Part shown: positions 2,419 to 61,729 of the stretch, piece by piece
Layout: each line of letters opens with the position of its first letter
Position numbering within the stretch: the stretch's first letter is position 1
Made by a program: the position numbers and the translations under genes
Source of the DNA: Echinarachnius parma
Lineage: Eukaryota; Echinodermata; Echinoidea; Clypeasteroida; Echinarachniidae
Length of the DNA stretch: 64,000 nucleotides
NCBI GenBank assembly: GCA_037951105.1
Contig: JBAMJV010008290.1
Location: 56,194 to 120,193, forward strand
Reading direction: 5' to 3'
Notes under the pieces: model-generated
The model's database searches: none
Seen by the model: only the letters and a program-made list of their open reading frames with translations
What the model was told of the DNA's origin: nothing

Positions 2419-2448
2419 TAGGTTATACATATGTATATGTATAACCTA
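2419..2448. repeat. Terminal hairpin marking the repeat/gene boundary
   Basis: Same 13-bp arms and TGTA loop as the hairpin at 794-823. Here homology to the satellite family ends at the hairpin, and unrelated sequence ('attaatcaattactctg') follows directly. This makes the hairpin a likely natural end of the repeated element. Confidence 0.85.
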
Positions 2449-8181: not shown

Positions 8182-8260
8182 TAGGTTATACATATGTATA
8201 TGTATAACCTAAAAATCTTGACGAAATCAATAGGTTATACATATGTATATGTATAACCTA
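8182..8260. repeat. Two tandem hairpin units
   Basis: Hairpins with 13-bp arms and TGTA loops lie at 8182-8211 and 8231-8260. Each is preceded by 'atcttgacgaaatcaa', giving a period of 49 bp. They end module a, just before 'actagatgttgaattcgtca'. Confidence 0.9.
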
Positions 8261-10055: not shown

Positions 10056-10329
10056 TTAAAATATGACTATTGACCTGATTAATATTGATACGAAATTTGA
10101 ATTGAAATTGATATTTCATAACTGAGATATAATGATTATTAAAATTTGACAAAATGGCGTCCTGATGACGTCACAGTCATGTGACGTCACTGAAAAGGTT
10201 AGCAGATCTAAGTTAGATCATGATCTATCATCATGTGAAGATTCATGACAATTGATTCATGTGATCTTGAGATATGCGACGCACAAAATTAGGAAGAATA
10301 AATAATAATAAAAATTCGAACGAAATCAA

Positions 10330-10424
10330 TAGGTTATACATATGTATATGTATAACCTAATAATAAAAAATAATAAAAATTCGAACGAAATCAATAGGTT
10401 ATACATATGTATATGTATAACCTA
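10330..10424. repeat. Two tandem hairpin units, variant flank
   Basis: Hairpins at 10330-10359 and 10395-10424 share the 13-bp arms and TGTA loop. Their upstream flank is 'attcgaacgaaatcaa' in place of 'atcttgacgaaatcaa', the flank type also seen in the last two units at 41.6 kb. The period is 65 bp. Confidence 0.88.
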
Positions 10425-10612
10425 ATAAATAACTAGATGTTGAATTCGTCACTTTTGACGAATTAAAGGTTATACATATCGATTTAAAATGATAAAAGGA
10501 TGATTCCAAAAATAACTACTCAATCATCATATCAATAATAATAGATTCCTCCCCCCCCCCCTGAAAAAAAAAAGAGAAAAAAAGAAGGAAAAAAAGAAAG
10601 TTAAAACATATT

Positions 10613-10673
10613 GCCTTGGATTCGAACCCACGACCCTTTGATCTTGTGTCACAAATTATACCCCGAGACCAAC
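10613..10673 (-). repeat. tRNA-derived segment of module b (SINE-like)
   Basis: Minus-strand B box GGTTCGAATCC is intact; the A-box-like element lies near 10660-10671. A C-run and A-rich tract follow on the low-coordinate side. Same structure and position as the other b modules. Confidence 0.7.
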
Positions 10674-12769
10674 ATTAGATCTCTTAACGAAAATGGGAAA
10701 TCGGGAAAGATACATCAGTGATTGCACACTGTATTTGTCATTGTAACAGTGAATTATTTGACCTTTGAACCTAATTTACATATCCTTAACGCCATTTTCA
10801 TAATCCGACCTTATCTTATGAAAATTGTTCCTTTCATTATAACATATATTTGTGCTGAATTTCATGTCCGCGGCGTACGTGGTTATTGAGTATTCATGCT
10901 TGATTTATTTGATAGTAAATATGACAATGAAATATGCATTTTCGCGATTTGGTGTTAATTTATGAAATGATGGGCTTGCAAATCCCTATCTACATGCGAA
11001 GCTTCACATTGGTAGCATCATTCCTCCAGCAGTTATAGGTCGAAAGCATACGTTTTGGCTAAACCTGAATTTTTATCAGATTTGGACTCTTATATTTAAT
11101 CAAACAATTCATCAGGATCCAGTTAACATAACGAATTGTTGTGAAAAGATTGCGAATAGAACAGGACATCAGCTACGATAATATCAAAATTTGGGAGAAA
11201 ATTGATGGAGAATAAGCGAGATATGGTCAATAGTCCGCTGTGATCGATTTCAAAATCGATTAAAATCGATTAAAATTCGCATTTTCAACTTTAACCGTCA
11301 ATATGATGACGTTATAACATTTACTCGGCATAATTGAGGTATGAATTCGTATCTACAACTCATCATCTATCTGAATATTAAAAGAAAATTGGATGTTTGT
11401 GGACTTTTTAAAAAGTTATGGCCGAATAAAAAAAGGATGTTTTTACCATGTTTTGTCATTTTGCGTGCGCGCGTAATTTTGACTTTGACGCGCGCGTACT
11501 CCGTTATTATGAGTCAACAATGACTCAAATTGATAGGGTGAGTTGAAGGATGTATCAGGATTGCAAAACATGTGAATAAACGACATTTTTTCTATGTATT
11601 TGCGTTAAGCGCGCCAATACGCGTGGCAGATTAATCACAATTGTATAGAGACACATTATAGTTCCTGAATTCATATTATTAGATAATTGAAACCACATCA
11701 CTTTTAAAGCATAACCTCAGCTACAACATATCGAAATCTGGGAGAAAATCAATGGAGAATAAGCGAGATATGGTCGGAAGTCTGCTGTGATTGATTTAAA
11801 AATCGATTAAAATAAGTTAAAATAAGTTAAAATGCGCATTTTCAACTTTAACCGTCAATATGATGACTTTATAACATTTACTCGGCATAAATGAGGTATG
11901 AGTTCGTATCTACAACTCATAATCTATCCGAATATTAAAAGAAAATTGGATGTTTATGGACTTTAAAAAAAGTTATGGCCGAATAAAAACAACGATGTTT
12001 TTACCATATTTTGCCAATTTGCTTGTGCGCGTAATTTTGACTTTGACGCGCGCGTACTCCGTTATTATGAGTCAACAATGACTCAGATTGATAGGGTGCG
12101 TTGAGGGATGTATAAGAATTGCAAAACATGTGAAAAAACGACAATTTTCTTATTCATTTGCGTTACGCGCGCAAATACGCGCGCGCCGACGCGCACGCGT
12201 GGACTTTTTTGAAACGATTAAAATTGTCTAAAACATATAGTAAATTACTCGGGTTAGGGTTTTGATCATTTTGCAATTTTGTTTTCATTTGACGGACGCG
12301 TACGCGCGCGTCTCCGAGTGTAAGCACACGCGCATCAACTTGAAATATGACGATTGACCTAATTTATATTGAAGCGAAATTTGAAGTGAAATTGATGATG
12401 CATGACTGAGTTATGATGATTATTGAAATTCGACAAAATGGCGTCCTGATGACGTCACAGTGATCTGACGAGATTAAAATGATTACGTTGCACTAAGTCA
12501 GATGATGATCTATCATCATGTGAAGTTTCATGAAGTTTGATTCATCTGATCTTGAGATATGCGACGAACAAAATCGGAAGAATAATAATAATAATAACTA
12601 GATGTTGAATTCGTCACTTTTGACGAATTAAGGTTATACATATCGATTTATTATGATAAAAGGATGATTCCAAAAATAACTACTCAATCATCATATCAAT
12701 AATAATAGATTCCCCCCCCCCCCCCCCCTGAAAAAAATAAAAATAAAAAAAGAAAGTTAAAAAATATTG

Positions 12770-12830
12770 CCTTGGATTCGAACCCAGGACCTTTTGATCT
12801 TGTGTCACAAATTATACCGCGAGACCAACA
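12770..12830 (-). repeat. tRNA-derived segment of module b (SINE-like)
   Basis: B box (minus strand) at 12774-12784 and A-box-like element at 12817-12827. A run of 17 C lies at 12712-12728. The segment recurs unchanged at +9598 and +19196. Confidence 0.7.
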
Positions 12831-13668
12831 TTAGATCTCTTAACGAAAATGGGAAATTGGGAAAGATATATCAGTGATTGCACACTGCACTTGTCATTGT
12901 AACAGTGAATTATTTGACCTTTGAACCTAAATTACATATCCTTAACGCCATTTTCATAATCCGATCTTATCTTATGAACATTTTTCCTTTCATTATACCA
13001 TACATGTGTGCTGGATTACATGTCCGCGGCGTACGTGGTTATTGAGTATTCATGGTTGATTTATTTGACCTTTAACGGTAAATATGACAATGAAATATGC
13101 ATTTTCGCGATTTGGTGTTAACTTATGAAATGATGGGCTTGCAAATCCCTATCTACATGCGAAATCTCAAATTGATAGCATAATTCCTTCAGCAGTTATG
13201 TCGATAACATACGTTTTGGCTAACCCTCAATTTGTAACAGATTTGAACTCTATTTCCAATCAAACAATTCATCAGGATCCATTGAACAAAACTAAATGGT
13301 GTGAATAGATTGCGAATAGAGCAGAACATCAGCTACGATATATCAAAATTGGGGAGTACATTGATGGAGAATAAGTGAGATATGGTCAATAGTCCGCTGT
13401 GATCGATTTCAACATTGACTGAAATTGATTAAAATTCGCATTTTCAACTTTAACCGTCAATATGATGATTTTATAACATTTACTCGGCATAAATGAGGTA
13501 TGAATTCGTATCTACAACTCATAATCTATCCGAATATTAAAAGAAAATTGGATGTTTGTGGACTTTTTAAAAAGTTATGGCCGAATAAAAAAAGGATGTT
13601 TTTACCATATTTTGCCAATTTGCGTGCGCGCGTAATTTTGACTTTGACGCGCGCGTACTCCGTTATTA

Positions 13669-13686
13669 TGAGTCAACAATGACTCA
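13669..13686. promoter_or_regulatory. Inverted pair of AP-1/TRE-type sites (representative)
   Basis: TGAGTCA at 13669-13675 and its reverse complement TGACTCA at 13680-13686 are separated by ACAA. This is a perfect 7-bp inverted repeat matching the AP-1 (TRE) consensus twice. It is kept in most a modules (for example 1881-1898, 7624-7641, 18526-18543). Binding is inferred from the motif only. Confidence 0.5.
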
Positions 13687-14051
13687 AATTGATAGGGTGT
13701 GTTGAGGGATCCATAAGGAATCCAAAACATGTGAAAAAACGACAATTTTCCTATTCATTCGCGTTACGCGCGCAAATACGCGCGCGCCGACGCGCACGCG
13801 CGGAATTTTTTGAAACGCTTAAAATTGTCTGAAACATATAGTAAATTACTCGGGTTAGGGTTTTGAGCATTTTTTGACATTTTTTTTCATTTGACGGACG
13901 CGTACGCGCGCGTCTCCGAGAGTAATTGCACGCGCATGAGCTTAAAAGATGACCATTGACCTGATAAATGTTAATGCGAAATTTGAATTGAAATTGATAT
14001 TTCATGACTGAGATATGATGATTATTAACATTTGACAAAATGGCGTCCTGA

Positions 14052-14075
14052 TGACGTCACAGTCATGTGACGTCA
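14052..14075. promoter_or_regulatory. Paired CRE sites (representative)
   Basis: TGACGTCA, the palindromic CREB/ATF site, occurs at 14052-14059 and 14068-14075, 16 bp apart start to start. Other a modules have the pair or, in the variant 'gtgatctgacgagatt', only the first site. The short a modules keep one. Function is inferred from the motif only. Confidence 0.5.
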
Positions 14076-15427
14076 CTGAAAAAGTGGGCAGTTCTAAGTT
14101 AGAACATGATCTATCATCATGTGAAGATTCATGATATTTGATTAATCTGATCTTGAGATAATCGACGAACAAAATAAGGAAGAATAAATAATAATAATAA
14201 CTAGATGTTGAATTCGTCACTTTAGACGAATTAAAGGTTATACATATTGAAATTATGATTATTATGATGATATTGACTTTTCAACGCCTAATATGATGAT
14301 GTCGTAACATTTACTTGGCATAAATGAATGACACCAAATAGGCTAACAATATTAATTCATAACAAAAGGGGAGGGGGGAGCTCTTTAATTGACCAAAATG
14401 ACTGTAAAATGGCTCTGTACCTGACGTCTTATTTCAACCATATCACACCTTTCCTTTGGCCGATTTTGACCCGGTTTTCAGTATGCTAAAGCTGAGTTTC
14501 CTCTACACAATCATTTTTTCGATTTTATTTTACGATTTGAGCACGGGAACAGGTCGTAATTGAAGGTTGAACTTTTTTTTTCTTTATCGTGCACTATGAT
14601 GACTTTACCAAATCTGATTGGCCAATGTTAAAATTGTAAAAATATGTGCAACTCATACTCTTTCAGAATATGAAAAAATATTTGTATATTTCCATTTATC
14701 AAAGAAGTTGTGACCGATAAGAGAAGTGCATGTTTGACCAGATTTAGCCAATTTTCACACTCTTTGCGCGATTTCAACTTTAACCGGTCAATTCGATGAC
14801 TTTAGAAGATTTACTCGGCATAAAGCAAGTATGAATTCGTATCTACAACTCATAATCTATCCAAATATTCAAATACAATTGTGTTTTTGTCGACTTTTGA
14901 AAAAGTTATGGCCGAATTAAAAAAGGATGTTTTTACCATATTTTGCCAATTATTTGTTTAGAACTGTTCGCCCTTAGATGTTAGATGGCGCTGTTCAGAC
15001 TTAGCCAATTTTCACACTCGTGCGCTTTTTAAATCTTAACGGTCAATATGATGACTTTGTAACATTTACTCGGCATAAATGAGGTATGAATTCGCATCTA
15101 CAACTCATAATCTTTCCGGATATTCAAAGAAATTTGCGAGTTTGTGGACTTTTTAAAAAGTTATGGCCGATAAGAGACCAGACTTGGGAAATTTTCACGC
15201 TCGTGCGCCATTTAATTTTTAACCGTCAATATGATGACTTTATGACATTTACTCGGCATGAATGAGGTATGAATTCGCATCTACACCTCATAATCTATCC
15301 GAATATTAAAAGAAAGTTGGGTTTTTGTGGACTTTTTAAAAAGTTATGCTCGAATAAAAAAATGGTTGTTTTTGATCATTTTCAGATTGTAAGATCCTTA
15401 GACGGGCGCGTACGCGCTTGTTACGTG

Positions 15428-15446
15428 GCGCATGCGCATGCGCATA
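15428..15446. promoter_or_regulatory. NRF1-like palindrome in short a module (representative)
   Basis: GCGCATGCGC, followed by ATGCGCAT, matches the nuclear respiratory factor 1 type palindrome. It recurs in the other half-unit at about 20288 and in both further array copies. A related GCGCATGCGC is at about 2127. Binding is not shown. Confidence 0.4.
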
Positions 15447-15905
15447 CTCGTAAAAGTTGCCACTCGGCGTGATGATTATTGGTGCCACATTTAAAGGGAA
15501 ATAGAAGATGCATGACTGAGATACATCCATGAATGTAATTTCACAAAATGGCGTCCCGTTGACGTCACGAATAGTCGGCGGCACCCAAAAGTTTGGCAGT
15601 TCTAAGTTAGACCAAGATCTATCATTCCGCAAAGTTTCAGGACAATAGCTGCACCCGTTATTGAGGTATCCGACGAACAAAATCCTTGTTTTCGTGTCTC
15701 TATGCATTGGCATACAGACACAAAAACAATACTAGATTTTGCATTCGTCACTTTTGACGAATTAAGGTTATACATATCGAATTCTTATGATAAAAGCATT
15801 ATTCCAAAAATAACTACTCAATCATCATATAAATAATATCACATACTCCACCCCCCCCCCCTAATAAAAAGTAAAAAAGAAGAAAAAAGAAATTTAAAAA
15901 ATATT

Positions 15906-15966
15906 GTTTTGGATTCGAACCCACGACCCTTAGATCTTGCGTCACAACTTGTTCCACGAGACCAAC
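15906..15966 (-). repeat. tRNA-derived segment of module b (SINE-like)
   Basis: Minus-strand B box is intact. Compared with the copies at 12.8 and 20.8 kb it has 'cttagatcttgcgtcacaacttgttccacgag' type changes, so it belongs to a sub-variant shared with 17625-17684. A run of 11 C precedes it. Repeats at +9598 and +19196. Confidence 0.7.
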
Positions 15967-17364
15967 ATTAGATCTCTTAACGAAAATGGGAAATCGGGAA
16001 CAATATATCAGTGATTGCACACTGCATTTGTCATTGTAACAGTGAATTATTTGACCTTTGAACCTAATTTACATATCCTTAACGCCATTTTCATAATCCG
16101 ATCTTATCTTATGAAAATTGTTCCTTTCATTATAACCTACATGTGTGCTGAATTTCATGTCCACGGCGTACGTGGTTATTCATGCTTGATTTATTTGATT
16201 TATTTGATTTATTTGACGGTAAATATGGCGATGAAATATGCATTTTCGCGATTTGGTGTTAACTTATGAAATGTTGGGCTTGCAAGTCCCTATCTACATG
16301 CGAAGTTTCACATTGGTAGCATAATTCTTTCAGCAGTTATTATTCGAAAGCATACGTTTTAGCTAACCCTCAATTTTTAACAGATTTGGACTCTCATTTC
16401 CAATCAAACAATTCATCAGGATCCAGTGAACAAAACTAAATGGTGTGAATAGATTGCGAATAGAGCAGGACATCAGCTACGATATATCAAAATTTGCGAG
16501 TACATTGATGGAGAATAAGCGAGATATGGTCAAAAGTACACTGTGATCGATTTCAACATTGATTGAAAGTGATTAAAATTCGCATTTTCAACTTTAACCG
16601 TCAATACGATGACTTTATAACATTTACTCGGCATAAATGAGGTATGAATTCGTATGTACAACTCATAATCTATCCGAATATTAAAAGAAAATTGGGTGTT
16701 TGAGGACTTTTTAAAAAGTTATGGCCGAATACAAAAAGGATGTTTTTACCATGTTTTGCCATTTTTTGCCATTTTGCGTGCGCGCGTAATTTTGACTTTG
16801 ACACGCGCGTACTCCGTTATTATGAGTCAATAATGACTCAAATTGATAGGGTGTGCTGAGGGATGTATAAGAATTGCAAAACATGTAAAAAAACTACATT
16901 TTTTTTATTCATTCGCGTTACGCGCGCAAATACACGCGCGCCGACGCGCACGCGCGGAATTTTTTGAAACGCTTAAAATTGTCTGAAACATATAGTAAAT
17001 TACTCGGGTTAGGGTTTGGAGCATTTAAAAAAAAAAAATTAATTGACGGACGCGTACGCGCGCGTCTCCGAGTGTAATTGCATGCGCATGAGCTTAAAAG
17101 ATGAACATTGACCTGATAAATATTGATGCGAAATTTGAATTGAAATTGATATTTCATGACTGAGTTATGATGATTATTAACATTTGACAAAATGGCGTCC
17201 TGATGACGTCACAGTGATGTGACGTCACTGAAAAAGTTGGCAGTTCTAAGTTAGAACATGATCTATCATCATGTGATGATTCATGATATTTGATTCATCT
17301 GATCTTGAGATAATCGACGAACAAAATTAGGAAGAAGAATAAAGAAAAATCTTGACGAAATCAA

Positions 17365-17443
17365 TAGGTTATACATATGTATATGTATAACCTAAAAATC
17401 TTGACGAAATCAATAGGTTATACATATGTATATGTATAACCTA
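17365..17443. repeat. Two tandem hairpin units inside the higher-order repeat
   Basis: Hairpins at 17365-17394 and 17414-17443, 49-bp period, same arms and loop as elsewhere. They recur at +9598 and +19196. The homologous position in the second half-unit (about 22195) has no hairpin, only an (aat)n stretch. Confidence 0.9.
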
Positions 17444-17624
17444 ATAAACTAGATTTTGAATTCGTCACTTTTGACGAATTAAGGTTATACATATCGATTT
17501 TCTTATGATAAAAGCATTATTCCAAAAATAACTACTCAATTATCATATAAATAATATCACATACTCCCCCCCCCCCCCCTAATAAAAAGTAAAAAAGAAG
17601 AAAAAAGAAATTAAAAAAATATTG

Positions 17625-17684
17625 TCTTGGATTCGAACCCACGACCCTTAGATCTTGCGTCACAACTTGTTCCACGAGACCAAC
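17625..17684 (-). repeat. tRNA-derived segment of module b (SINE-like)
   Basis: Minus-strand B box is intact, with a run of 14 C on the low-coordinate side. Recurs at +9598 and +19196 with the same C-run length. Confidence 0.7.
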
Positions 17685-20600
17685 ATTAGATCTCTTAACG
17701 AAAATGGGAAATCGGGAACGATATATCAGTGATTGCACACTGCAGTTGTCATTGTAACAGTGAATTATTTGACCTTTGAACCTAATTTACATATCCTTAA
17801 CGCCATTTTCATAATCCGATCTTATCTTATGAACATTTTCCTTTCATTATACCATACATGTGTGCTGAATTTCATGTCCGCGGCGTACGTGGTTATTGAG
17901 TATTTATGCTTGATTTATTTGACCTTTAACGGTAAATATGACAATGAAATATGCATTTTCGCGATTTGGTGTTAACTTATGAAATGATGGGTTTGAAAAT
18001 CCCTATCTACATGCGAAATCTTAAATTGATAGCATAATTCCTTCAGCAGTTATATGTCGATAAGATACGTTTTGGCTAACCCTCAATTTGTAACAGATTT
18101 GGACTCTCATTTCCAATCAAACAATTCATCAGGATCCATTGAACAAAACTAAATGGTGTGAATAGATTGCGAATAGAGCAGAACATCAGCTACGATATAT
18201 CAAAATTTGGGAGTACATTGATGGAGAATAAGTGAGATATGGTCAAAAGTACACTTTGGTCGATTTCAACATTGATTGAAATTGAGTAAAATTCGCATTT
18301 TCAACTTTAACCGTCAATACGATGACTTTATAACATTTACTCGGCATAAATGAGGTATGAATTCGTATCTACAACTCATAATCTATCCGAATATTAAACA
18401 AAAATTGGGTGTTTGTGGACTTTTTAAAAAGTTATGGCCGAATAAAAAAAGTATGTTTTTACCATATTTTGCCAATTTGCGTGCGCGCGTAATTTTGACT
18501 TTGACGCGCGTGTACTCCGTTATTATGAGTCAACAATGACTCAAATTGATAGGGTGTGTTGAGGGGATCTATAAGGAATGCAAAACATGTGAAAAAACGA
18601 CAATTTTCCTATTCATTCGCGTTACGCGCGCAAATACGCGCGCGCCGACGCGCACGCGCGGAATTTTTTGAAACGCTTAAAATTGTCTGAAACATATAGT
18701 AAATTACTCGGGTTGGGGTTTTGAACATTTTAATTTTTTTTTTTCACTTGACGGACGCGTATGCGCGCGTCTCTGAGTGTAAGCGCACGCGCATGAGCTT
18801 AATATATGACGATTGAACTGATTGATATTGATGCGAAATTTGAAGTGAAATTAATGATGCATGACTGAGTTATGATGATTATTGAAATTTGACAAAATGG
18901 CGTCCTGATGACGTCACAGTGATCTGACGAGATTAAAATGATTACGTTGCACTAAGTCAGATGATGATCTATCATCATGTGAAGTTTCATGATGATTGAT
19001 TCATTTGATCTTGAGATATGCGACGAACAAAATCGGAAGAATAATAATAATAATAAACTAGATGTTGAATTCGTCACGTTTGACGAATTAAAGGTTATAC
19101 ATATCGAAATTACCATATGATGATTATTGACTTTTCAACGCGTAATTATGATGATGTCATAACATTTACTTGGCATAAATGAATGACACCAAATGGGGTA
19201 ACAATATTCATTCATAACACAAAAGGGGAGGGGGCAGCTCTTTAATTGACCAAAATGACTGTAAAATGGCTCTGTACTTGACGTCTTATTTTGACCATGT
19301 CACACCTTTCCATGGGCCGATTTTTGCCAGGTTTTCAGTATGTTAAAGCTGAGTTTCTGCTACACAATCATTTTTTCGATTTTATTTCACGATTTGAGCA
19401 GGGGAACAGGTCGTAATTGAAGGTTGAACTTTTTTTTTCTTTATCGTGCACTATGATGAATTTACAAAATCTGATTGGCCAATGTTAAAATTGTAACAAT
19501 ATGTGCAACTCATACTCTTTCAGAATATGAAAAAATATTTGTATATATCCATGTATCAAAGAAGTTGTGACCGTTAAGAGAAATGCATGTTTGACCAGAT
19601 TTAGCCAATTTTCACACTCTTTGCGCGATTTCAACTTTAACCGGTAAATTCGATGACTTTAGAAGATTTACTCGGCATAAAGCAAGTATGAATTCGTATC
19701 TACAACTCATAATCTATCCAAATATTGAAATAAAATTGGGTTTTTGTCCACTTTTGAAAAAGTTATGGCCGAATTAAAAAAGGATGTTTTTACCATATTT
19801 TGCCAATTATTTGTTTTGAACTGTTCGCCGTTAGATGTTAGATGGCGCTATACAGACTTAGCCAATTTTCACACTCGTGCGCCAATTAAATTTCAACGGT
19901 CAATATGATGACTTTGTAACATTTACTGGGCATAAATGAGGTATGAATTCGCATCTACAACTCATAATCTTTCCGGATATTCAAAGAAATTTGGGAGTTT
20001 GTGGACTTTTTAAAAAGTTATGGCCGATAAGAGACCAGACTTGGGAAATTTTCACACTCGTGCGCTATTTAATTTTTAACCGTCAATATGATGACTTTAT
20101 AACATTTACTCGGCATAAATGAGGTATGAATTCATATCTACAACTCATAATCTATCCGAATATTAAAAGAAAGTTGGGTTTTTGTGGACTTTTTACAAAG
20201 TTATGCCCGAATAAAAAAATGGTTGTTTTTTTAGCATTTTCAGATTTTAAGATCCTTAGACGGGCGCGTACGCGCTTGTTACGTAGCGCATGCGCATGCG
20301 CATAATCGGAAAAGTTGCCACTTGGCCTGATAATTGTTGGTGCCAAATTTAAAGGGAAATAGAAGATGCATGACTGAGATACATCCATGAATGAAATTTC
20401 ACAAAATGGCGTCCTGATGACGTCACGAATAGTTGGCGGCACCCAAAAGTTTGGCAGTTCTAAGTTAGACCAAGATCTATCATCTGGCCAAGTTTCAGGA
20501 CAATAGTTGCACCCGTTATTGAGGTATCCGACGAACAAAATCCTTGTTTTCGTGTCTCTATGCATTGGCATACAGACACAAAAACAATACTAGATGTTGA

Positions 20601-20762
20601 ATTCGTCACTTTTGACGAATTAAGGTTATACATATCGACTTATTATGATAAAAGGATGATTCCAAAAATAACTACTCAATCATCTTATCAATAATAATAG
20701 ATCCCCTCCCCCTGAAAAGGAAAGAAAAAAGAATACAAAACAAAGTAAAACAAACCAAGATT

Positions 20763-20823
20763 GCCTTGGATTCGAACCCACGACCCTTTGATCTTGTGTC
20801 ACAAATTATACCGCGAGACCAAC
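20763..20823 (-). repeat. tRNA-derived segment of module b (SINE-like)
   Basis: Minus-strand B box is intact. The usual C-run is here interrupted (cccctccccctg). Recurs at +9598 and +19196. Confidence 0.7.
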
Positions 20824-21459
20824 ATTAGATCTCTTAACGAAAATGGGAAATCGGGAAAGATACATCAGTGATTGCACACTGCATTTGTCATTGTAACAGT
20901 GAATTATTTGACCTTTGAACCTAATTTACATATCCTTAATGCCATTTTCATAATCCGATCTTATCTTATGAACATTTTCCTTTCATTATACCATACATGT
21001 GTGCTGAATTTCATGTCCGCGGCGTACGTGGTTATTGAGTATTCATGCTTGATTTATTTGACCTTTAACGGTAAATATGACAATGAAATATGCATTTTCG
21101 CGATTTGGTGTTAACTTATGAAATGATGGGCTTGAAAATCCCTATCTACATGCGAAATCTCAAATTGATAGCATAATTTCTTCAGCAGTTATAGGTCGAT
21201 AACATACGTTTTGGCTAAACCTCAATTTTTATCAGATTTTGACTCTTATTTACAATCAAACAATTCATCAGGATCCAGTTAACATAACAAATTGTTGTGA
21301 AAAGATTGCGAAAAGAGCAGGACATCAGCTACGATATATCAAAATTTGGGAGTACATTGATGGAGAATAAGTGAGATATGGTCAAAAGTACACTGTGATC
21401 GATTTCAACATTGATTGAAATTGAGTAAAATTCGCATTTTCAACTTTAACCGTCAATAC

Positions 21460-24400
21460 GATGACTTTATAACATTTACTCGGCATAAATGAGGTATGAG
21501 TTCGTATCTACAACTCATAATCTATCCGAATATTAAAAGAAAATTGGATGTTTATGGACTTTAAAAAAAGTTATGGCCGAATAAAAACAACGATGTTTTT
21601 ACCATATTTTGCCAATTTGCTTGTGCGCGTAATTTTGACTTTGACGCGCGCGTACTCCGTTATTATGAGTCAACAATGACTCAGATTGATAGGGTGCGTT
21701 GAGGGATGTATAAGAATTGCAAAACATGTGAAAAAACGACAATTTTCTTATTCATTTGCGTTACGCGCGCAAATACGCGCGCGCCGACGCGCACGCGTGG
21801 ACTTTTTTGAAACGATTAAAATTGTCTAAAACATATAGTAAATTACTCGGGTTAGGGTTTTGATCATTTTGCAATTTTGTTTTCATTTGACGGACGCGTA
21901 CGCGCGCGTCTCCGAGTGTAAGCACACGCGCATCAACTTGAAATATGACGATTGACCTAATTTATATTGAAGCGAAATTTGAAGTGAAATTGATGATGCA
22001 TGACTGAGTTATGATGATTATTGAAATTCGACAAAATGGCGTCCTGATGACGTCACAGTGATCTGACGAGATTAAAATGATTACGTTGCACTAAGTCAGA
22101 TGATGATCTATCATCATGTGAAGTTTCATGAAGTTTGATTCATCTGATCTTGAGATATGCGACGAACAAAATCGGAAGAATAATAATAATAATAACTAGA
22201 TGTTGAATTCGTCACTTTTGACGAATTAAGGTTATACATATCGATTTATTATGATAAAAGGATGATTCCAAAAATAACTACTCAATCATCATATCAATAA
22301 TAATAGATTCCCCCCCCCCCCCCCCCTGAAAAAAATAAAAATAAAAAAAGAAAGTTAAAAAATATTGCCTTGGATTCGAACCCAGGACCTTTTGATCTTG
22401 TGTCACAAATTATACCGCGAGACCAACATTAGATCTCTTAACGAAAATGGGAAATTGGGAAAGATATATCAGTGATTGCACACTGCACTTGTCATTGTAA
22501 CAGTGAATTATTTGACCTTTGAACCTAAATTACATATCCTTAACGCCATTTTCATAATCCGATCTTATCTTATGAACATTTTTCCTTTCATTATACCATA
22601 CATGTGTGCTGGATTACATGTCCGCGGCGTACGTGGTTATTGAGTATTCATGGTTGATTTATTTGACCTTTAACGGTAAATATGACAATGAAATATGCAT
22701 TTTCGCGATTTGGTGTTAACTTATGAAATGATGGGCTTGCAAATCCCTATCTACATGCGAAATCTCAAATTGATAGCATAATTCCTTCAGCAGTTATGTC
22801 GATAACATACGTTTTGGCTAACCCTCAATTTGTAACAGATTTGAACTCTATTTCCAATCAAACAATTCATCAGGATCCATTGAACAAAACTAAATGGTGT
22901 GAATAGATTGCGAATAGAGCAGAACATCAGCTACGATATATCAAAATTGGGGAGTACATTGATGGAGAATAAGTGAGATATGGTCAATAGTCCGCTGTGA
23001 TCGATTTCAACATTGACTGAAATTGATTAAAATTCGCATTTTCAACTTTAACCGTCAATATGATGATTTTATAACATTTACTCGGCATAAATGAGGTATG
23101 AATTCGTATCTACAACTCATAATCTATCCGAATATTAAAAGAAAATTGGATGTTTGTGGACTTTTTAAAAAGTTATGGCCGAATAAAAAAAGGATGTTTT
23201 TACCATATTTTGCCAATTTGCGTGCGCGCGTAATTTTGACTTTGACGCGCGCGTACTCCGTTATTATGAGTCAACAATGACTCAAATTGATAGGGTGTGT
23301 TGAGGGATCCATAAGGAATCCAAAACATGTGAAAAAACGACAATTTTCCTATTCATTCGCGTTACGCGCGCAAATACGCGCGCGCCGACGCGCACGCGCG
23401 GAATTTTTTGAAACGCTTAAAATTGTCTGAAACATATAGTAAATTACTCGGGTTAGGGTTTTGAGCATTTTTTGACATTTTTTTTCATTTGACGGACGCG
23501 TACGCGCGCGTCTCCGAGAGTAATTGCACGCGCATGAGCTTAAAAGATGACCATTGACCTGATAAATGTTAATGCGAAATTTGAATTGAAATTGATATTT
23601 CATGACTGAGATATGATGATTATTAACATTTGACAAAATGGCGTCCTGATGACGTCACAGTCATGTGACGTCACTGAAAAAGTGGGCAGTTCTAAGTTAG
23701 AACATGATCTATCATCATGTGAAGATTCATGATATTTGATTAATCTGATCTTGAGATAATCGACGAACAAAATAAGGAAGAATAAATAATAATAATAACT
23801 AGATGTTGAATTCGTCACTTTAGACGAATTAAAGGTTATACATATTGAAATTATGATTATTATGATGATATTGACTTTTCAACGCCTAATATGATGATGT
23901 CGTAACATTTACTTGGCATAAATGAATGACACCAAATAGGCTAACAATATTAATTCATAACAAAAGGGGAGGGGGGAGCTCTTTAATTGACCAAAATGAC
24001 TGTAAAATGGCTCTGTACCTGACGTCTTATTTCAACCATATCACACCTTTCCTTTGGCCGATTTTGACCCGGTTTTCAGTATGCTAAAGCTGAGTTTCCT
24101 CTACACAATCATTTTTTCGATTTTATTTTACGATTTGAGCACGGGAACAGGTCGTAATTGAAGGTTGAACTTTTTTTTTCTTTATCGTGCACTATGATGA
24201 CTTTACCAAATCTGATTGGCCAATGTTAAAATTGTAAAAATATGTGCAACTCATACTCTTTCAGAATATGAAAAAATATTTGTATATTTCCATTTATCAA
24301 AGAAGTTGTGACCGATAAGAGAAGTGCATGTTTGACCAGATTTAGCCAATTTTCACACTCTTTGCGCGATTTCAACTTTAACCGGTCAATTCGATGACTT

Positions 24401-27400
24401 TAGAAGATTTACTCGGCATAAAGCAAGTATGAATTCGTATCTACAACTCATAATCTATCCAAATATTCAAATACAATTGTGTTTTTGTCGACTTTTGAAA
24501 AAGTTATGGCCGAATTAAAAAAGGATGTTTTTACCATATTTTGCCAATTATTTGTTTAGAACTGTTCGCCCTTAGATGTTAGATGGCGCTGTTCAGACTT
24601 AGCCAATTTTCACACTCGTGCGCTTTTTAAATCTTAACGGTCAATATGATGACTTTGTAACATTTACTCGGCATAAATGAGGTATGAATTCGCATCTACA
24701 ACTCATAATCTTTCCGGATATTCAAAGAAATTTGCGAGTTTGTGGACTTTTTAAAAAGTTATGGCCGATAAGAGACCAGACTTGGGAAATTTTCACGCTC
24801 GTGCGCCATTTAATTTTTAACCGTCAATATGATGACTTTATGACATTTACTCGGCATGAATGAGGTATGAATTCGCATCTACACCTCATAATCTATCCGA
24901 ATATTAAAAGAAAGTTGGGTTTTTGTGGACTTTTTAAAAAGTTATGCTCGAATAAAAAAATGGTTGTTTTTGATCATTTTCAGATTGTAAGATCCTTAGA
25001 CGGGCGCGTACGCGCTTGTTACGTGGCGCATGCGCATGCGCATACTCGTAAAAGTTGCCACTCGGCGTGATGATTATTGGTGCCACATTTAAAGGGAAAT
25101 AGAAGATGCATGACTGAGATACATCCATGAATGTAATTTCACAAAATGGCGTCCCGTTGACGTCACGAATAGTCGGCGGCACCCAAAAGTTTGGCAGTTC
25201 TAAGTTAGACCAAGATCTATCATTCCGCAAAGTTTCAGGACAATAGCTGCACCCGTTATTGAGGTATCCGACGAACAAAATCCTTGTTTTCGTGTCTCTA
25301 TGCATTGGCATACAGACACAAAAACAATACTAGATTTTGCATTCGTCACTTTTGACGAATTAAGGTTATACATATCGAATTCTTATGATAAAAGCATTAT
25401 TCCAAAAATAACTACTCAATCATCATATAAATAATATCACATACTCCACCCCCCCCCCCTAATAAAAAGTAAAAAAGAAGAAAAAAGAAATTTAAAAAAT
25501 ATTGTTTTGGATTCGAACCCACGACCCTTAGATCTTGCGTCACAACTTGTTCCACGAGACCAACATTAGATCTCTTAACGAAAATGGGAAATCGGGAACA
25601 ATATATCAGTGATTGCACACTGCATTTGTCATTGTAACAGTGAATTATTTGACCTTTGAACCTAATTTACATATCCTTAACGCCATTTTCATAATCCGAT
25701 CTTATCTTATGAAAATTGTTCCTTTCATTATAACCTACATGTGTGCTGAATTTCATGTCCACGGCGTACGTGGTTATTCATGCTTGATTTATTTGATTTA
25801 TTTGATTTATTTGACGGTAAATATGGCGATGAAATATGCATTTTCGCGATTTGGTGTTAACTTATGAAATGTTGGGCTTGCAAGTCCCTATCTACATGCG
25901 AAGTTTCACATTGGTAGCATAATTCTTTCAGCAGTTATTATTCGAAAGCATACGTTTTAGCTAACCCTCAATTTTTAACAGATTTGGACTCTCATTTCCA
26001 ATCAAACAATTCATCAGGATCCAGTGAACAAAACTAAATGGTGTGAATAGATTGCGAATAGAGCAGGACATCAGCTACGATATATCAAAATTTGCGAGTA
26101 CATTGATGGAGAATAAGCGAGATATGGTCAAAAGTACACTGTGATCGATTTCAACATTGATTGAAAGTGATTAAAATTCGCATTTTCAACTTTAACCGTC
26201 AATACGATGACTTTATAACATTTACTCGGCATAAATGAGGTATGAATTCGTATGTACAACTCATAATCTATCCGAATATTAAAAGAAAATTGGGTGTTTG
26301 AGGACTTTTTAAAAAGTTATGGCCGAATACAAAAAGGATGTTTTTACCATGTTTTGCCATTTTTTGCCATTTTGCGTGCGCGCGTAATTTTGACTTTGAC
26401 ACGCGCGTACTCCGTTATTATGAGTCAATAATGACTCAAATTGATAGGGTGTGCTGAGGGATGTATAAGAATTGCAAAACATGTAAAAAAACTACATTTT
26501 TTTTATTCATTCGCGTTACGCGCGCAAATACACGCGCGCCGACGCGCACGCGCGGAATTTTTTGAAACGCTTAAAATTGTCTGAAACATATAGTAAATTA
26601 CTCGGGTTAGGGTTTGGAGCATTTAAAAAAAAAAAATTAATTGACGGACGCGTACGCGCGCGTCTCCGAGTGTAATTGCATGCGCATGAGCTTAAAAGAT
26701 GAACATTGACCTGATAAATATTGATGCGAAATTTGAATTGAAATTGATATTTCATGACTGAGTTATGATGATTATTAACATTTGACAAAATGGCGTCCTG
26801 ATGACGTCACAGTGATGTGACGTCACTGAAAAAGTTGGCAGTTCTAAGTTAGAACATGATCTATCATCATGTGATGATTCATGATATTTGATTCATCTGA
26901 TCTTGAGATAATCGACGAACAAAATTAGGAAGAAGAATAAAGAAAAATCTTGACGAAATCAATAGGTTATACATATGTATATGTATAACCTAAAAATCTT
27001 GACGAAATCAATAGGTTATACATATGTATATGTATAACCTAATAAACTAGATTTTGAATTCGTCACTTTTGACGAATTAAGGTTATACATATCGATTTTC
27101 TTATGATAAAAGCATTATTCCAAAAATAACTACTCAATTATCATATAAATAATATCACATACTCCCCCCCCCCCCCCTAATAAAAAGTAAAAAAGAAGAA
27201 AAAAGAAATTAAAAAAATATTGTCTTGGATTCGAACCCACGACCCTTAGATCTTGCGTCACAACTTGTTCCACGAGACCAACATTAGATCTCTTAACGAA
27301 AATGGGAAATCGGGAACGATATATCAGTGATTGCACACTGCAGTTGTCATTGTAACAGTGAATTATTTGACCTTTGAACCTAATTTACATATCCTTAACG

Positions 27401-30400
27401 CCATTTTCATAATCCGATCTTATCTTATGAACATTTTCCTTTCATTATACCATACATGTGTGCTGAATTTCATGTCCGCGGCGTACGTGGTTATTGAGTA
27501 TTTATGCTTGATTTATTTGACCTTTAACGGTAAATATGACAATGAAATATGCATTTTCGCGATTTGGTGTTAACTTATGAAATGATGGGTTTGAAAATCC
27601 CTATCTACATGCGAAATCTTAAATTGATAGCATAATTCCTTCAGCAGTTATATGTCGATAAGATACGTTTTGGCTAACCCTCAATTTGTAACAGATTTGG
27701 ACTCTCATTTCCAATCAAACAATTCATCAGGATCCATTGAACAAAACTAAATGGTGTGAATAGATTGCGAATAGAGCAGAACATCAGCTACGATATATCA
27801 AAATTTGGGAGTACATTGATGGAGAATAAGTGAGATATGGTCAAAAGTACACTTTGGTCGATTTCAACATTGATTGAAATTGAGTAAAATTCGCATTTTC
27901 AACTTTAACCGTCAATACGATGACTTTATAACATTTACTCGGCATAAATGAGGTATGAATTCGTATCTACAACTCATAATCTATCCGAATATTAAACAAA
28001 AATTGGGTGTTTGTGGACTTTTTAAAAAGTTATGGCCGAATAAAAAAAGTATGTTTTTACCATATTTTGCCAATTTGCGTGCGCGCGTAATTTTGACTTT
28101 GACGCGCGTGTACTCCGTTATTATGAGTCAACAATGACTCAAATTGATAGGGTGTGTTGAGGGGATCTATAAGGAATGCAAAACATGTGAAAAAACGACA
28201 ATTTTCCTATTCATTCGCGTTACGCGCGCAAATACGCGCGCGCCGACGCGCACGCGCGGAATTTTTTGAAACGCTTAAAATTGTCTGAAACATATAGTAA
28301 ATTACTCGGGTTGGGGTTTTGAACATTTTAATTTTTTTTTTTCACTTGACGGACGCGTATGCGCGCGTCTCTGAGTGTAAGCGCACGCGCATGAGCTTAA
28401 TATATGACGATTGAACTGATTGATATTGATGCGAAATTTGAAGTGAAATTAATGATGCATGACTGAGTTATGATGATTATTGAAATTTGACAAAATGGCG
28501 TCCTGATGACGTCACAGTGATCTGACGAGATTAAAATGATTACGTTGCACTAAGTCAGATGATGATCTATCATCATGTGAAGTTTCATGATGATTGATTC
28601 ATTTGATCTTGAGATATGCGACGAACAAAATCGGAAGAATAATAATAATAATAAACTAGATGTTGAATTCGTCACGTTTGACGAATTAAAGGTTATACAT
28701 ATCGAAATTACCATATGATGATTATTGACTTTTCAACGCGTAATTATGATGATGTCATAACATTTACTTGGCATAAATGAATGACACCAAATGGGGTAAC
28801 AATATTCATTCATAACACAAAAGGGGAGGGGGCAGCTCTTTAATTGACCAAAATGACTGTAAAATGGCTCTGTACTTGACGTCTTATTTTGACCATGTCA
28901 CACCTTTCCATGGGCCGATTTTTGCCAGGTTTTCAGTATGTTAAAGCTGAGTTTCTGCTACACAATCATTTTTTCGATTTTATTTCACGATTTGAGCAGG
29001 GGAACAGGTCGTAATTGAAGGTTGAACTTTTTTTTTCTTTATCGTGCACTATGATGAATTTACAAAATCTGATTGGCCAATGTTAAAATTGTAACAATAT
29101 GTGCAACTCATACTCTTTCAGAATATGAAAAAATATTTGTATATATCCATGTATCAAAGAAGTTGTGACCGTTAAGAGAAATGCATGTTTGACCAGATTT
29201 AGCCAATTTTCACACTCTTTGCGCGATTTCAACTTTAACCGGTAAATTCGATGACTTTAGAAGATTTACTCGGCATAAAGCAAGTATGAATTCGTATCTA
29301 CAACTCATAATCTATCCAAATATTGAAATAAAATTGGGTTTTTGTCCACTTTTGAAAAAGTTATGGCCGAATTAAAAAAGGATGTTTTTACCATATTTTG
29401 CCAATTATTTGTTTTGAACTGTTCGCCGTTAGATGTTAGATGGCGCTATACAGACTTAGCCAATTTTCACACTCGTGCGCCAATTAAATTTCAACGGTCA
29501 ATATGATGACTTTGTAACATTTACTGGGCATAAATGAGGTATGAATTCGCATCTACAACTCATAATCTTTCCGGATATTCAAAGAAATTTGGGAGTTTGT
29601 GGACTTTTTAAAAAGTTATGGCCGATAAGAGACCAGACTTGGGAAATTTTCACACTCGTGCGCTATTTAATTTTTAACCGTCAATATGATGACTTTATAA
29701 CATTTACTCGGCATAAATGAGGTATGAATTCATATCTACAACTCATAATCTATCCGAATATTAAAAGAAAGTTGGGTTTTTGTGGACTTTTTACAAAGTT
29801 ATGCCCGAATAAAAAAATGGTTGTTTTTTTAGCATTTTCAGATTTTAAGATCCTTAGACGGGCGCGTACGCGCTTGTTACGTAGCGCATGCGCATGCGCA
29901 TAATCGGAAAAGTTGCCACTTGGCCTGATAATTGTTGGTGCCAAATTTAAAGGGAAATAGAAGATGCATGACTGAGATACATCCATGAATGAAATTTCAC
30001 AAAATGGCGTCCTGATGACGTCACGAATAGTTGGCGGCACCCAAAAGTTTGGCAGTTCTAAGTTAGACCAAGATCTATCATCTGGCCAAGTTTCAGGACA
30101 ATAGTTGCACCCGTTATTGAGGTATCCGACGAACAAAATCCTTGTTTTCGTGTCTCTATGCATTGGCATACAGACACAAAAACAATACTAGATGTTGAAT
30201 TCGTCACTTTTGACGAATTAAGGTTATACATATCGACTTATTATGATAAAAGGATGATTCCAAAAATAACTACTCAATCATCTTATCAATAATAATAGAT
30301 CCCCTCCCCCTGAAAAGGAAAGAAAAAAGAATACAAAACAAAGTAAAACAAACCAAGATTGCCTTGGATTCGAACCCACGACCCTTTGATCTTGTGTCAC

Positions 30401-31057
30401 AAATTATACCGCGAGACCAACATTAGATCTCTTAACGAAAATGGGAAATCGGGAAAGATACATCAGTGATTGCACACTGCATTTGTCATTGTAACAGTGA
30501 ATTATTTGACCTTTGAACCTAATTTACATATCCTTAATGCCATTTTCATAATCCGATCTTATCTTATGAACATTTTCCTTTCATTATACCATACATGTGT
30601 GCTGAATTTCATGTCCGCGGCGTACGTGGTTATTGAGTATTCATGCTTGATTTATTTGACCTTTAACGGTAAATATGACAATGAAATATGCATTTTCGCG
30701 ATTTGGTGTTAACTTATGAAATGATGGGCTTGAAAATCCCTATCTACATGCGAAATCTCAAATTGATAGCATAATTTCTTCAGCAGTTATAGGTCGATAA
30801 CATACGTTTTGGCTAAACCTCAATTTTTATCAGATTTTGACTCTTATTTACAATCAAACAATTCATCAGGATCCAGTTAACATAACAAATTGTTGTGAAA
30901 AGATTGCGAAAAGAGCAGGACATCAGCTACGATATATCAAAATTTGGGAGTACATTGATGGAGAATAAGTGAGATATGGTCAAAAGTACACTGTGATCGA
31001 TTTCAACATTGATTGAAATTGAGTAAAATTCGCATTTTCAACTTTAACCGTCAATAC
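21460..31057. repeat. 9598-bp higher-order repeat, copy 2
   Basis: Second period. Every landmark sits exactly 9598 bp downstream of copy 1, including the tRNA-like segments (22368, 25504, 27223, 30361), the hairpin pair (26963-27041) and C-runs of 17, 11 and 14. I found no mismatch to copy 1 in the stretches I compared. Confidence 0.93.
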
Positions 31058-37000: not shown

Positions 37001-40000
37001 ATTTTCATAATCCGATCTTATCTTATGAACATTTTCCTTTCATTATACCATACATGTGTGCTGAATTTCATGTCCGCGGCGTACGTGGTTATTGAGTATT
37101 TATGCTTGATTTATTTGACCTTTAACGGTAAATATGACAATGAAATATGCATTTTCGCGATTTGGTGTTAACTTATGAAATGATGGGTTTGAAAATCCCT
37201 ATCTACATGCGAAATCTTAAATTGATAGCATAATTCCTTCAGCAGTTATATGTCGATAAGATACGTTTTGGCTAACCCTCAATTTGTAACAGATTTGGAC
37301 TCTCATTTCCAATCAAACAATTCATCAGGATCCATTGAACAAAACTAAATGGTGTGAATAGATTGCGAATAGAGCAGAACATCAGCTACGATATATCAAA
37401 ATTTGGGAGTACATTGATGGAGAATAAGTGAGATATGGTCAAAAGTACACTTTGGTCGATTTCAACATTGATTGAAATTGAGTAAAATTCGCATTTTCAA
37501 CTTTAACCGTCAATACGATGACTTTATAACATTTACTCGGCATAAATGAGGTATGAATTCGTATCTACAACTCATAATCTATCCGAATATTAAACAAAAA
37601 TTGGGTGTTTGTGGACTTTTTAAAAAGTTATGGCCGAATAAAAAAAGTATGTTTTTACCATATTTTGCCAATTTGCGTGCGCGCGTAATTTTGACTTTGA
37701 CGCGCGTGTACTCCGTTATTATGAGTCAACAATGACTCAAATTGATAGGGTGTGTTGAGGGGATCTATAAGGAATGCAAAACATGTGAAAAAACGACAAT
37801 TTTCCTATTCATTCGCGTTACGCGCGCAAATACGCGCGCGCCGACGCGCACGCGCGGAATTTTTTGAAACGCTTAAAATTGTCTGAAACATATAGTAAAT
37901 TACTCGGGTTGGGGTTTTGAACATTTTAATTTTTTTTTTTCACTTGACGGACGCGTATGCGCGCGTCTCTGAGTGTAAGCGCACGCGCATGAGCTTAATA
38001 TATGACGATTGAACTGATTGATATTGATGCGAAATTTGAAGTGAAATTAATGATGCATGACTGAGTTATGATGATTATTGAAATTTGACAAAATGGCGTC
38101 CTGATGACGTCACAGTGATCTGACGAGATTAAAATGATTACGTTGCACTAAGTCAGATGATGATCTATCATCATGTGAAGTTTCATGATGATTGATTCAT
38201 TTGATCTTGAGATATGCGACGAACAAAATCGGAAGAATAATAATAATAATAAACTAGATGTTGAATTCGTCACGTTTGACGAATTAAAGGTTATACATAT
38301 CGAAATTACCATATGATGATTATTGACTTTTCAACGCGTAATTATGATGATGTCATAACATTTACTTGGCATAAATGAATGACACCAAATGGGGTAACAA
38401 TATTCATTCATAACACAAAAGGGGAGGGGGCAGCTCTTTAATTGACCAAAATGACTGTAAAATGGCTCTGTACTTGACGTCTTATTTTGACCATGTCACA
38501 CCTTTCCATGGGCCGATTTTTGCCAGGTTTTCAGTATGTTAAAGCTGAGTTTCTGCTACACAATCATTTTTTCGATTTTATTTCACGATTTGAGCAGGGG
38601 AACAGGTCGTAATTGAAGGTTGAACTTTTTTTTTCTTTATCGTGCACTATGATGAATTTACAAAATCTGATTGGCCAATGTTAAAATTGTAACAATATGT
38701 GCAACTCATACTCTTTCAGAATATGAAAAAATATTTGTATATATCCATGTATCAAAGAAGTTGTGACCGTTAAGAGAAATGCATGTTTGACCAGATTTAG
38801 CCAATTTTCACACTCTTTGCGCGATTTCAACTTTAACCGGTAAATTCGATGACTTTAGAAGATTTACTCGGCATAAAGCAAGTATGAATTCGTATCTACA
38901 ACTCATAATCTATCCAAATATTGAAATAAAATTGGGTTTTTGTCCACTTTTGAAAAAGTTATGGCCGAATTAAAAAAGGATGTTTTTACCATATTTTGCC
39001 AATTATTTGTTTTGAACTGTTCGCCGTTAGATGTTAGATGGCGCTATACAGACTTAGCCAATTTTCACACTCGTGCGCCAATTAAATTTCAACGGTCAAT
39101 ATGATGACTTTGTAACATTTACTGGGCATAAATGAGGTATGAATTCGCATCTACAACTCATAATCTTTCCGGATATTCAAAGAAATTTGGGAGTTTGTGG
39201 ACTTTTTAAAAAGTTATGGCCGATAAGAGACCAGACTTGGGAAATTTTCACACTCGTGCGCTATTTAATTTTTAACCGTCAATATGATGACTTTATAACA
39301 TTTACTCGGCATAAATGAGGTATGAATTCATATCTACAACTCATAATCTATCCGAATATTAAAAGAAAGTTGGGTTTTTGTGGACTTTTTACAAAGTTAT
39401 GCCCGAATAAAAAAATGGTTGTTTTTTTAGCATTTTCAGATTTTAAGATCCTTAGACGGGCGCGTACGCGCTTGTTACGTAGCGCATGCGCATGCGCATA
39501 ATCGGAAAAGTTGCCACTTGGCCTGATAATTGTTGGTGCCAAATTTAAAGGGAAATAGAAGATGCATGACTGAGATACATCCATGAATGAAATTTCACAA
39601 AATGGCGTCCTGATGACGTCACGAATAGTTGGCGGCACCCAAAAGTTTGGCAGTTCTAAGTTAGACCAAGATCTATCATCTGGCCAAGTTTCAGGACAAT
39701 AGTTGCACCCGTTATTGAGGTATCCGACGAACAAAATCCTTGTTTTCGTGTCTCTATGCATTGGCATACAGACACAAAAACAATACTAGATGTTGAATTC
39801 GTCACTTTTGACGAATTAAGGTTATACATATCGACTTATTATGATAAAAGGATGATTCCAAAAATAACTACTCAATCATCTTATCAATAATAATAGATCC
39901 CCTCCCCCTGAAAAGGAAAGAAAAAAGAATACAAAACAAAGTAAAACAAACCAAGATTGCCTTGGATTCGAACCCACGACCCTTTGATCTTGTGTCACAA

Positions 40001-40655
40001 ATTATACCGCGAGACCAACATTAGATCTCTTAACGAAAATGGGAAATCGGGAAAGATACATCAGTGATTGCACACTGCATTTGTCATTGTAACAGTGAAT
40101 TATTTGACCTTTGAACCTAATTTACATATCCTTAATGCCATTTTCATAATCCGATCTTATCTTATGAACATTTTCCTTTCATTATACCATACATGTGTGC
40201 TGAATTTCATGTCCGCGGCGTACGTGGTTATTGAGTATTCATGCTTGATTTATTTGACCTTTAACGGTAAATATGACAATGAAATATGCATTTTCGCGAT
40301 TTGGTGTTAACTTATGAAATGATGGGCTTGAAAATCCCTATCTACATGCGAAATCTCAAATTGATAGCATAATTTCTTCAGCAGTTATAGGTCGATAACA
40401 TACGTTTTGGCTAAACCTCAATTTTTATCAGATTTTGACTCTTATTTACAATCAAACAATTCATCAGGATCCAGTTAACATAACAAATTGTTGTGAAAAG
40501 ATTGCGAAAAGAGCAGGACATCAGCTACGATATATCAAAATTTGGGAGTACATTGATGGAGAATAAGTGAGATATGGTCAAAAGTACACTGTGATCGATT
40601 TCAACATTGATTGAAATTGAGTAAAATTCGCATTTTCAACTTTAACCGTCAATAC
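31058..40655. repeat. 9598-bp higher-order repeat, copy 3
   Basis: Third period, with landmarks 19196 bp downstream of copy 1: tRNA-like segments at about 31966, 35102, 36821 and 39959, the hairpin pair at 36561-36639, and the same three C-run lengths. No difference from copies 1 and 2 was seen where compared. Confidence 0.93.
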
Positions 40656-41397
40656 GATGACTTTATAACATTTACTCGGCATAAATGAGGTATGAGTTCG
40701 TATCTACAACTCATAATCTATCCGAATATTAAAAGAAAATTGGATGTTTATGGACTTTAAAAAAAGTTATGGCCGAATAAAAACAACGATGTTTTTACCA
40801 TATTTTGCCAATTTGCGTGCGCGCGTAATTTTAACTTTGACGCGCGCGTACTCCGTCATTATGAGTCAACAATGACTCAAATTGATAGGGTGTGTTGAGG
40901 GATCTATAAGGAATGCAAAACATGTGAAAAAACGATAATTTTCCTATTCATTCGCGTTACGCGCGCAAATACGCGCGCGCCGACGCGCACGCGCGGAATT
41001 TTTTGAAACGCTTAAAATTGTCTGAAACATATAGTAAATTACTCGGGTTGGGGTTTTGAACATTTTAATTTTTTTTTTTCACTTGACGGACGCGTATGCG
41101 CGCGTCTCTGAGTGTAAGCGCACGCGCATGAGCTTAAAATATGACGATTGAACTGATTGATATTGATGCGAAATTTGAAGTGAAATTAATGATGCATGAC
41201 TGAGTTATGATGATTATTGAAATTTGACAAAATGGCGTCCTGATGACGTCACAGTGATCTGACGAGATTAAAATGATTACGTTGCACTAAGTCAGATGAT
41301 GATCTATCATCATGTGAAGTTTCATGATGATTGATTCATTTGATCTTGAGATATGCGACGAACAAAATCGGAAGAATAATAATAATAATAATAAATA
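40656..41397. repeat. Partial fourth copy (161 bp) and flanking a module
   Basis: Identity to the array continues to 40816. At 40817 the sequence switches to a different a-module type ('gcgtgcgcgc' in place of 'gcttgtgcgc'). The rest of this module resembles the one at 18.36-19.05 kb and ends in an (aat)n stretch that leads into the hairpin array. Confidence 0.85.
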
Positions 41398-41690
41398 ATA
41401 AAAATCTTGACGAAATCAATAGGTTATACATATGTATATGTATAACCTAATAATAAAAATCTTGACGAAATCAATAGGTTATACATATGTATATGTATAA
41501 CCTAATAATAATAAAAATCTTGACGAAATCAATAGGTTATACATATGTATATGTATAACCTAAAAATAATAATAAAAATTCGAACAAAATCAATAGGTTA
41601 TACATATGATATATGTATAACCTAATAATAAAAATTCGAACAAAATCAATAGGTTATACATATGATATATGTATAACCTAATGATGATAC
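41398..41690. repeat. Five-unit hairpin array at the right end of the block
   Basis: Hairpins lie at 41420-41449, 41475-41504, 41533-41562, 41594-41624 and 41650-41680, with period 55-61 bp. The first three have flank 'cttgacgaaatc' and loop TGTA. The last two have flank 'ttcgaacaaaatc' and arms lengthened to 14 bp around GAT. After the last hairpin the satellite family stops and AT-rich single-copy-looking sequence begins. Confidence 0.92.

Positions 41691-61682: not shown

Positions 61683-61729
<47 letters not shown>

Follow-up and report, generated by a model that had tools for sequence, protein, structure and literature searches.

A tandem array of putative non-autonomous Helentrons in Echinarachnius parma contains an exact six-element repeat of 9598 bp

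Canonical Helitrons carry a 5′ TC and a 3′ stem-loop plus CTRR, and they use an A/T target. The stem-loop and the A/T target are also described in PMC5876387. Two further sources characterize HINEs by 12-15 bp subTIRs, an inverted repeat that is complementary to the 5′ subTIR and adjoins it, a palindrome 8-35 bp from the 3′ end, a microsatellite and central repeats (PMC4067079; PMC7492417). HINEs are further said to insert between two T residues and to leave no target duplication, and sea urchin and molluscs are among the sources of the DINE-1-like elements described (Thomas et al. 2014, PMC4067079).

The window analyzed here, a stretch of 64,000 nucleotides, holds an array of units which, when read on the minus strand, appear to have the anatomy of non-autonomous Helentrons (HINE/DINE-1-like). 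Like the HINE/DINE-1-like elements of PMC4067079, these units have 13 bp subTIRs, an inverted repeat beside the 5′ subTIR, a 3′ palindrome 10 nt from the end, a microsatellite, optional central tandem repeats and T at the junctions, and no coding capacity was found in them. Unlike those elements as far as they are described there, the present ones form a long head-to-tail array with one to three central repeats, and the A elements among them carry a C-homopolymer and a stretch that may resemble a tRNA box B. In mite HINEs the subTIR lies 2-4 nt from the 5′ end and about 38-60 bp from the 3′ end (PMC4067079); the distance of 34-35 bp from the 3′ end found here is slightly short. Cg_HINE as described from Crassostrea gigas (PMC7492417) shares with our elements a left module of subTIR, complementary inverted repeat and microsatellite, satellite-like central repeats, and a right module of 3′ subTIR and palindrome. 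Cg_HINE is described there as dispersed genome-wide, whereas here whole elements form a higher-order repeat. An autonomous Helentron partner was not seen within the window.

Tandem Helitron arrays of plants were reportedly described by Xiong et al. in 2016. Our array is like those presented in a review (PMC12628747) in having head-to-tail rolling-circle elements with truncated copies. Satellites derived from Helitron or Helentron elements are a kind already known; a literature search made without the species name found no description of the present array. Satellite higher-order repeats, for example alpha satellite, likewise hold diverged units in a block repeated near-identically by unequal exchange. 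Unlike in such satellites, the unit here is a transposon-like element of 1.5-2.2 kb, and the array, of which about 41 kb are seen, is short and has exons on either side.

Our reading, which we consider fairly probable from the sequence, is that this is an array of HINEs, probably intronic, that grows by homologous recombination among its own units and in which recent recombination made exact copies.

Organization of the array and anatomy of its elements

Self-comparison of the window showed that the exact block described below is embedded in a diverged array of the same family that spans most of 1-41.7 kb. Apart from small gaps it occupies 1-2450, about 5495-9429, and 10056 to 41.7 kb. The array consists of head-to-tail units of ~1.45-2.2 kb each. 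All share one orientation, as a 20 bp border motif was found 22 times on the plus strand and not at all on the minus strand of the window with up to 4 mismatches allowed. The parts of the array, and the six elements of the repeated unit in its first copy, are as follows.

1..2449, minus strand: left diverged part of the array, with one complete element at 825-2449
5495..10432, minus strand: further diverged stretch on the left of the array, in which elements are rearranged and an insert interrupts at 9430-10055
10433..12597, minus strand: left-end element L; the exact block starts within it at 11862
12598..14200, minus strand: element A1 (1603 bp)
12598..12631, minus strand: example of a 3′ end, a stem-loop with 10 nt between its stem and the end of the element, which finishes in CTAG
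14201..15731, minus strand: element B1 (1531 bp), a subtype with three ~183 bp central-repeat matches and a different 5′ end
15732..17448, minus strand: element A2 (1717 bp), whose 5′ end has two copies of the 5′ palindrome module
17366..17442, minus strand: example of a 5′ module, two copies of a 28 bp palindrome containing the 13 bp subTIR
17449..19057, minus strand: element A3 (1609 bp)
19058..20589, minus strand: element B2 (1532 bp)
20590..22195, minus strand: element A4 (1606 bp), a putative hybrid that holds the joint of copies 1 and 2
39786..41689, minus strand: right-end element R; the exact block stops within it at 40816, and its 5′ end has about five palindrome modules (41389-41689)

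The insert at 9430-10055 is 0.63 kb long, lies in a diverged element and has imperfect terminal inverted repeats (GGGAGAGATCCACTTTTGCAA / GGACAGGTCCACTTTTACAA) with TTAAA on both sides; it is MITE-like.

Likeness between elements was mostly 80-96% over aligned columns in a set of 11 of the 22 elements, the others being exact copies and the insert-bearing element at 8262-10432 being left out. The values above this range were 100% for A1 against its own exact copy, and 96.9% and 97.8% for two pairs, because part of the exact block is common to both members by construction.

Where the 5′ end is kept it reads AGGTTATACATATACATATGTATAACCT on the minus strand, a near-perfect palindrome at or no more than 8 nt from the border. 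The first half of this palindrome is the 13 bp subterminal inverted repeat AGGTTATACATAT, and its exact reverse complement precedes the 3′ stem-loop, a match for which a simple after-the-fact estimate gives a chance of about 7e-5. The subTIR is 0-8 nt from the 5′ border where that is kept, and the inverted repeat complementary to it is present as a 28 bp palindrome at 15 exact places in the window. The last 34 nt of the element form a stem-loop finishing in CTAG. When ten distinct elements were folded, all ten had a 3′ stem of 8-9 bp ending 10 nt before the terminus (11 nt at 15732). Canonical Helitrons have a 3′ stem-loop as well, and CTAG fits their CTRR end, while the 5′ end here opens with a palindrome and no clear TC. 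An AAT microsatellite is located at or just inside eight of the ten distinct borders and is absent from the two B borders. The ~183 bp central repeat gave 37 core matches in the window; within the unit every A element has one and every B element three. CTAG is followed by T in 10/10 distinct borders and by TT in 8/10, as seen at tandem borders alone. On the plus strand the A elements contain GGATTCGAACCC, a tRNA-box-B-like stretch that may resemble a SINE.

Two other identities for the repeat unit were rejected. A known RNA gene was rejected since, at gathering score, Rfam matched nothing in the window but two tRNAs at 52 kb. Six sub-threshold Rfam matches (E up to 1) were found in 12500-17500, all to microRNA families; five fall within the 5′ palindrome, and the sixth is at the 5′ end of a B element. 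A protein-coding amplification unit was rejected since the longest table-11 ORF in the unit is 139 aa, and neither of the two longest ORFs (125 and 139 aa) had a Pfam match at E 0.001. When viral contigs were scanned for a 22-base motif of the element, there were 0 matches.

The 3′ end motif is kept at all 22 borders found. Among the ten distinct borders four keep the 5′ palindrome module, four join CTAG to the microsatellite, and two join it to other sequence, these being the 5′ side of the B elements. At two borders, 825 and 8262, the 3′ end is joined directly to an intact 5′ end (CTAG followed by TTAGGTTATAC). The palindrome module may have been lost through slippage in the flanking microsatellite. 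This retention of 3′ ends with frequent absence of the 5′ palindrome module is opposite to the pattern that the review gives for many plant tandem Helitron arrays, namely multiple 5′ ends and a single 3′ end (PMC12628747).

The exact 9598 bp period

The earlier note had claimed an exact tandem triplication at 11862-40816, identical even in its C-homopolymers, and our comparisons bear this out. The block of 28,955 bp is 3 x 9598 + 161 bp without a difference, as 19,357 of 19,357 positions match at offset 9598 (11862 to 31218). String comparison showed that the three 9598 bp units are identical to one another and that the unit opens with the very bases of the 161 bp remainder.

11862..21459, no strand: copy 1 of the exact 9598 bp period, string-identical to copies 2 and 3
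21460..31057, no strand: exact copy 2, by string identity
31058..40655, no strand: exact copy 3, by string identity
40656..40816, no strand: 161 bp remainder, equal to 11862-12022; putative recombination tract within a central repeat

C-runs of 17, 11 and 14 have equal length and phase across all three copies, and a fourth homologous C-run site reads CCCCTCCCCC in every one of them. Ten base shuffles of the window gave no exact repeat longer than 15-17 bp, thus a chance origin of the exact block is excluded.

The six elements A1, B1, A2, A3, B2 and A4 together make up the 9598 bp of the period. These form two older three-element blocks of the order A-B-A. Of 4692 positions aligned between the two halves, with 44 gap blocks, 4380 are the same (93.35%), and by blastn with gaps counted the halves are 91.4% alike. 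Within 41 kb, three age layers are visible of how a transposon may turn into a satellite, namely the single element, the block of three and the exact block of six.

The offset-9598 positions minus the 161 bp overlap provide 19,196 comparisons with zero differences, which gives a 95% upper bound on divergence of about 1.6e-4, versus 4-20% in the older layers. In six different A elements the homologous C-run is 14, 11, 17, 11, 14 and interrupted, and it is invariant among the three copies. Since the run varies among older A elements and not among copies, the homopolymer identity supports youth. C-homopolymers of 12 to 23 also occur outside the array (54248-54927, 63122-63141), therefore long C-runs are not peculiar to it. 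The total identity of the copies suggests either very recent copying or an effect of assembly or polishing.

Origin of the exact copies

The exact block starts at 11862 in L and stops at 40816 in R, and the closest unit borders are 736 and 873 bp away. At the site of the putative exchange 187 of 188 bp are shared by L and R, including an exact run of 161 bp, and the site lies within one central-repeat copy. Homology continues in phase outside the block, at a lower similarity, as R past 40816 matches the unit at 538 of 573 positions (93.9%). On the left side the 162 bp of L preceding the block (11700-11861) match the unit at 124 of 152 positions (81.6%). This lower value is limited to these last 162 bp, because the whole left part of L (10433-11861) is 94.3% like A4 (808 of 857 aligned positions, 14 gap blocks). 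When the complete elements are aligned, L has the same base as R at 1507 of 1591 positions, and there are 16 gap blocks.

These observations suggest an order of steps in which an older doubling of the three-element block A-B-A would have been followed, as the youngest step, by an unequal exchange between L and R. The two elements, 9.6 kb apart, would have paired via the 161 bp identical tract of the central repeat, and the product would be the hybrid element A4 and a tandem copy of six elements. Such an exchange would account for the hybrid nature of A4 and for a block that is n periods long with 161 bp in addition. Three copies could then be reached by one further exchange or by a single multi-copy event. 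Both recombination as the cause and this order of steps are what we infer from the sequence. The period plus 161 bp is expected from any tandem copying via the tract, and alone it cannot separate recombination from a loop in an assembly graph. Helentron transposition as the direct maker of the 9.6 kb copies is less likely; the block ends lie within the central repeat and off the element ends, and unequal homologous recombination therefore fits better.

The elements are anatomically of the rolling-circle transposon class, and a circle of 9.6 kb that formed a concatemer and reinserted by homology would yield three difference-free copies together in a single step. Tandem arrays made by Helitron rolling circles are described in PMC12628747 and PMC5876387. 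We nevertheless regard this model as improbable, since the block ends 736 and 873 bp off the unit borders and in the central repeat, and ends made by a transposase were not seen. A circle formed by ordinary recombination may also have been the source of a 9.6 kb concatemer.

The 161 bp tract is not the only long exact match in the window. At other offsets we found exact matches of 253, 248, 248 and 201 bp that join non-equivalent array elements, and one of 320 bp in a neighboring duplication of EGF-like exons, so that five longer exact matches stand among those listed at other offsets. In addition, R and A3 share 445 of 446 bp, and an element of the left flank has a near-identical patch of 433 of 437 bp. 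These long exact tracts and patches suggest that exchange or conversion acted more than once and that exchange is common in this array.

The options raised in the earlier note were recent amplification, gene conversion and an assembly that repeats one read path. Of these, recent amplification is the best supported, because the unit is a six-element higher-order repeat in an older array and ends in a shared central repeat. The near-identical patches between non-equivalent elements are what one would point to for an older triplication held identical by gene conversion. However, patches in the array are a few hundred bp long, yet 19 kb are without one difference, microsatellites and C-runs included. 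With 9.6 kb free of any leftover difference we find long-maintained conversion very improbable.

An effect of assembly, in which the unit is present once or twice and the assembler looped or the polisher homogenized unlike copies, is in our judgment unlikely. Polishing or path duplication would also yield zero differences, C-runs included. Among the 11 of 22 elements compared, the two pairs that by construction share part of the exact block are the only full-length pairs whose divergence falls between 0 and about 4%, and in a short-read graph built with k below 161 a loop would form at just such a tract. Against this, the joint rests on 161 exact bases amid about 94% similarity, which a long-read assembler should not create. 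Long-read overlaps span thousands of near-identical bases, and 161 exact bases in diverged surroundings are untypical of them; an overlap error thus explains the hybrid junction poorly. The other exact repeats above 161 bp (the five listed above) remain apart and unmerged in the window. Overlap assemblers also usually collapse exact tandem repeats and do not expand them. We therefore consider it likely from the sequence that at least one duplication is real. That the copy number is exactly three appears less likely than this. The 29 kb exact block exceeds the usual HiFi read length, so the assembler may have guessed how many copies to write.

If the copies made by the proposed recombination are real, they would record a very young step in the birth of a satellite, probably intronic, whose seat can be located in the central repeat. 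A further reading, which we advance with reserve as possible though doubtful, is that a Helentron-derived intronic array is now growing in higher-order repeats of six elements. Its own ~183 bp central repeat would be the seat of recombination, with 3′ ends kept and 5′ ends lost. If such expansion is true, copy number may vary among individuals and may shift intron length in 9.6 kb steps. For genome builders the locus is a ready test case of whether exact tandem copies in assemblies are true.

Genomic setting

EGF-like exons lie on both sides of the array, and all five are above the Pfam EGF cut-off and on the minus strand.

3051-3146, 3519-3614 and 4260-4355, minus strand: further left EGF-like exons
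4852..4947, minus strand: EGF-like exon adjoining the array on the left
42054..42152, minus strand: EGF-like exon to the right of the array

If the exons on both sides belong together in a single gene, the array probably lies within an intron of one animal gene. Beside the array, a tandem duplication of about 1.2-1.33 kb at 2447-5240 includes two EGF-like exons with introns, its copies being 93-98% alike, and represents exon gain.

To the right of the array are retrotransposon reading frames. A frame of 1015 aa at 45927-48974 has endonuclease and reverse transcriptase domains of a non-LTR retrotransposon, with CGDINPNPGP near its start, presumably a 2A-like motif. Such a LINE, together with the EGF-like exons and the type of the array elements, would fit a marine invertebrate, for example an echinoderm. 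A second, broken reverse-transcriptase-like element is found at 49731-51618 on the minus strand. By eye we also noted inverted copies around aacaggt(c/a)acccaaatctacgaag at 42490-42670 and 45560-45720, flanking about 3 kb to the right of the array, which are perhaps the ends of another mobile element. The two tRNAs are tRNA-Gly(TCC) genes at 52013-52086 and 52412-52485, 399 bp apart, within a duplicated stretch of about 180 bp that is 91% alike. A TCT microsatellite of about 97 copies is located at 61453-61743.
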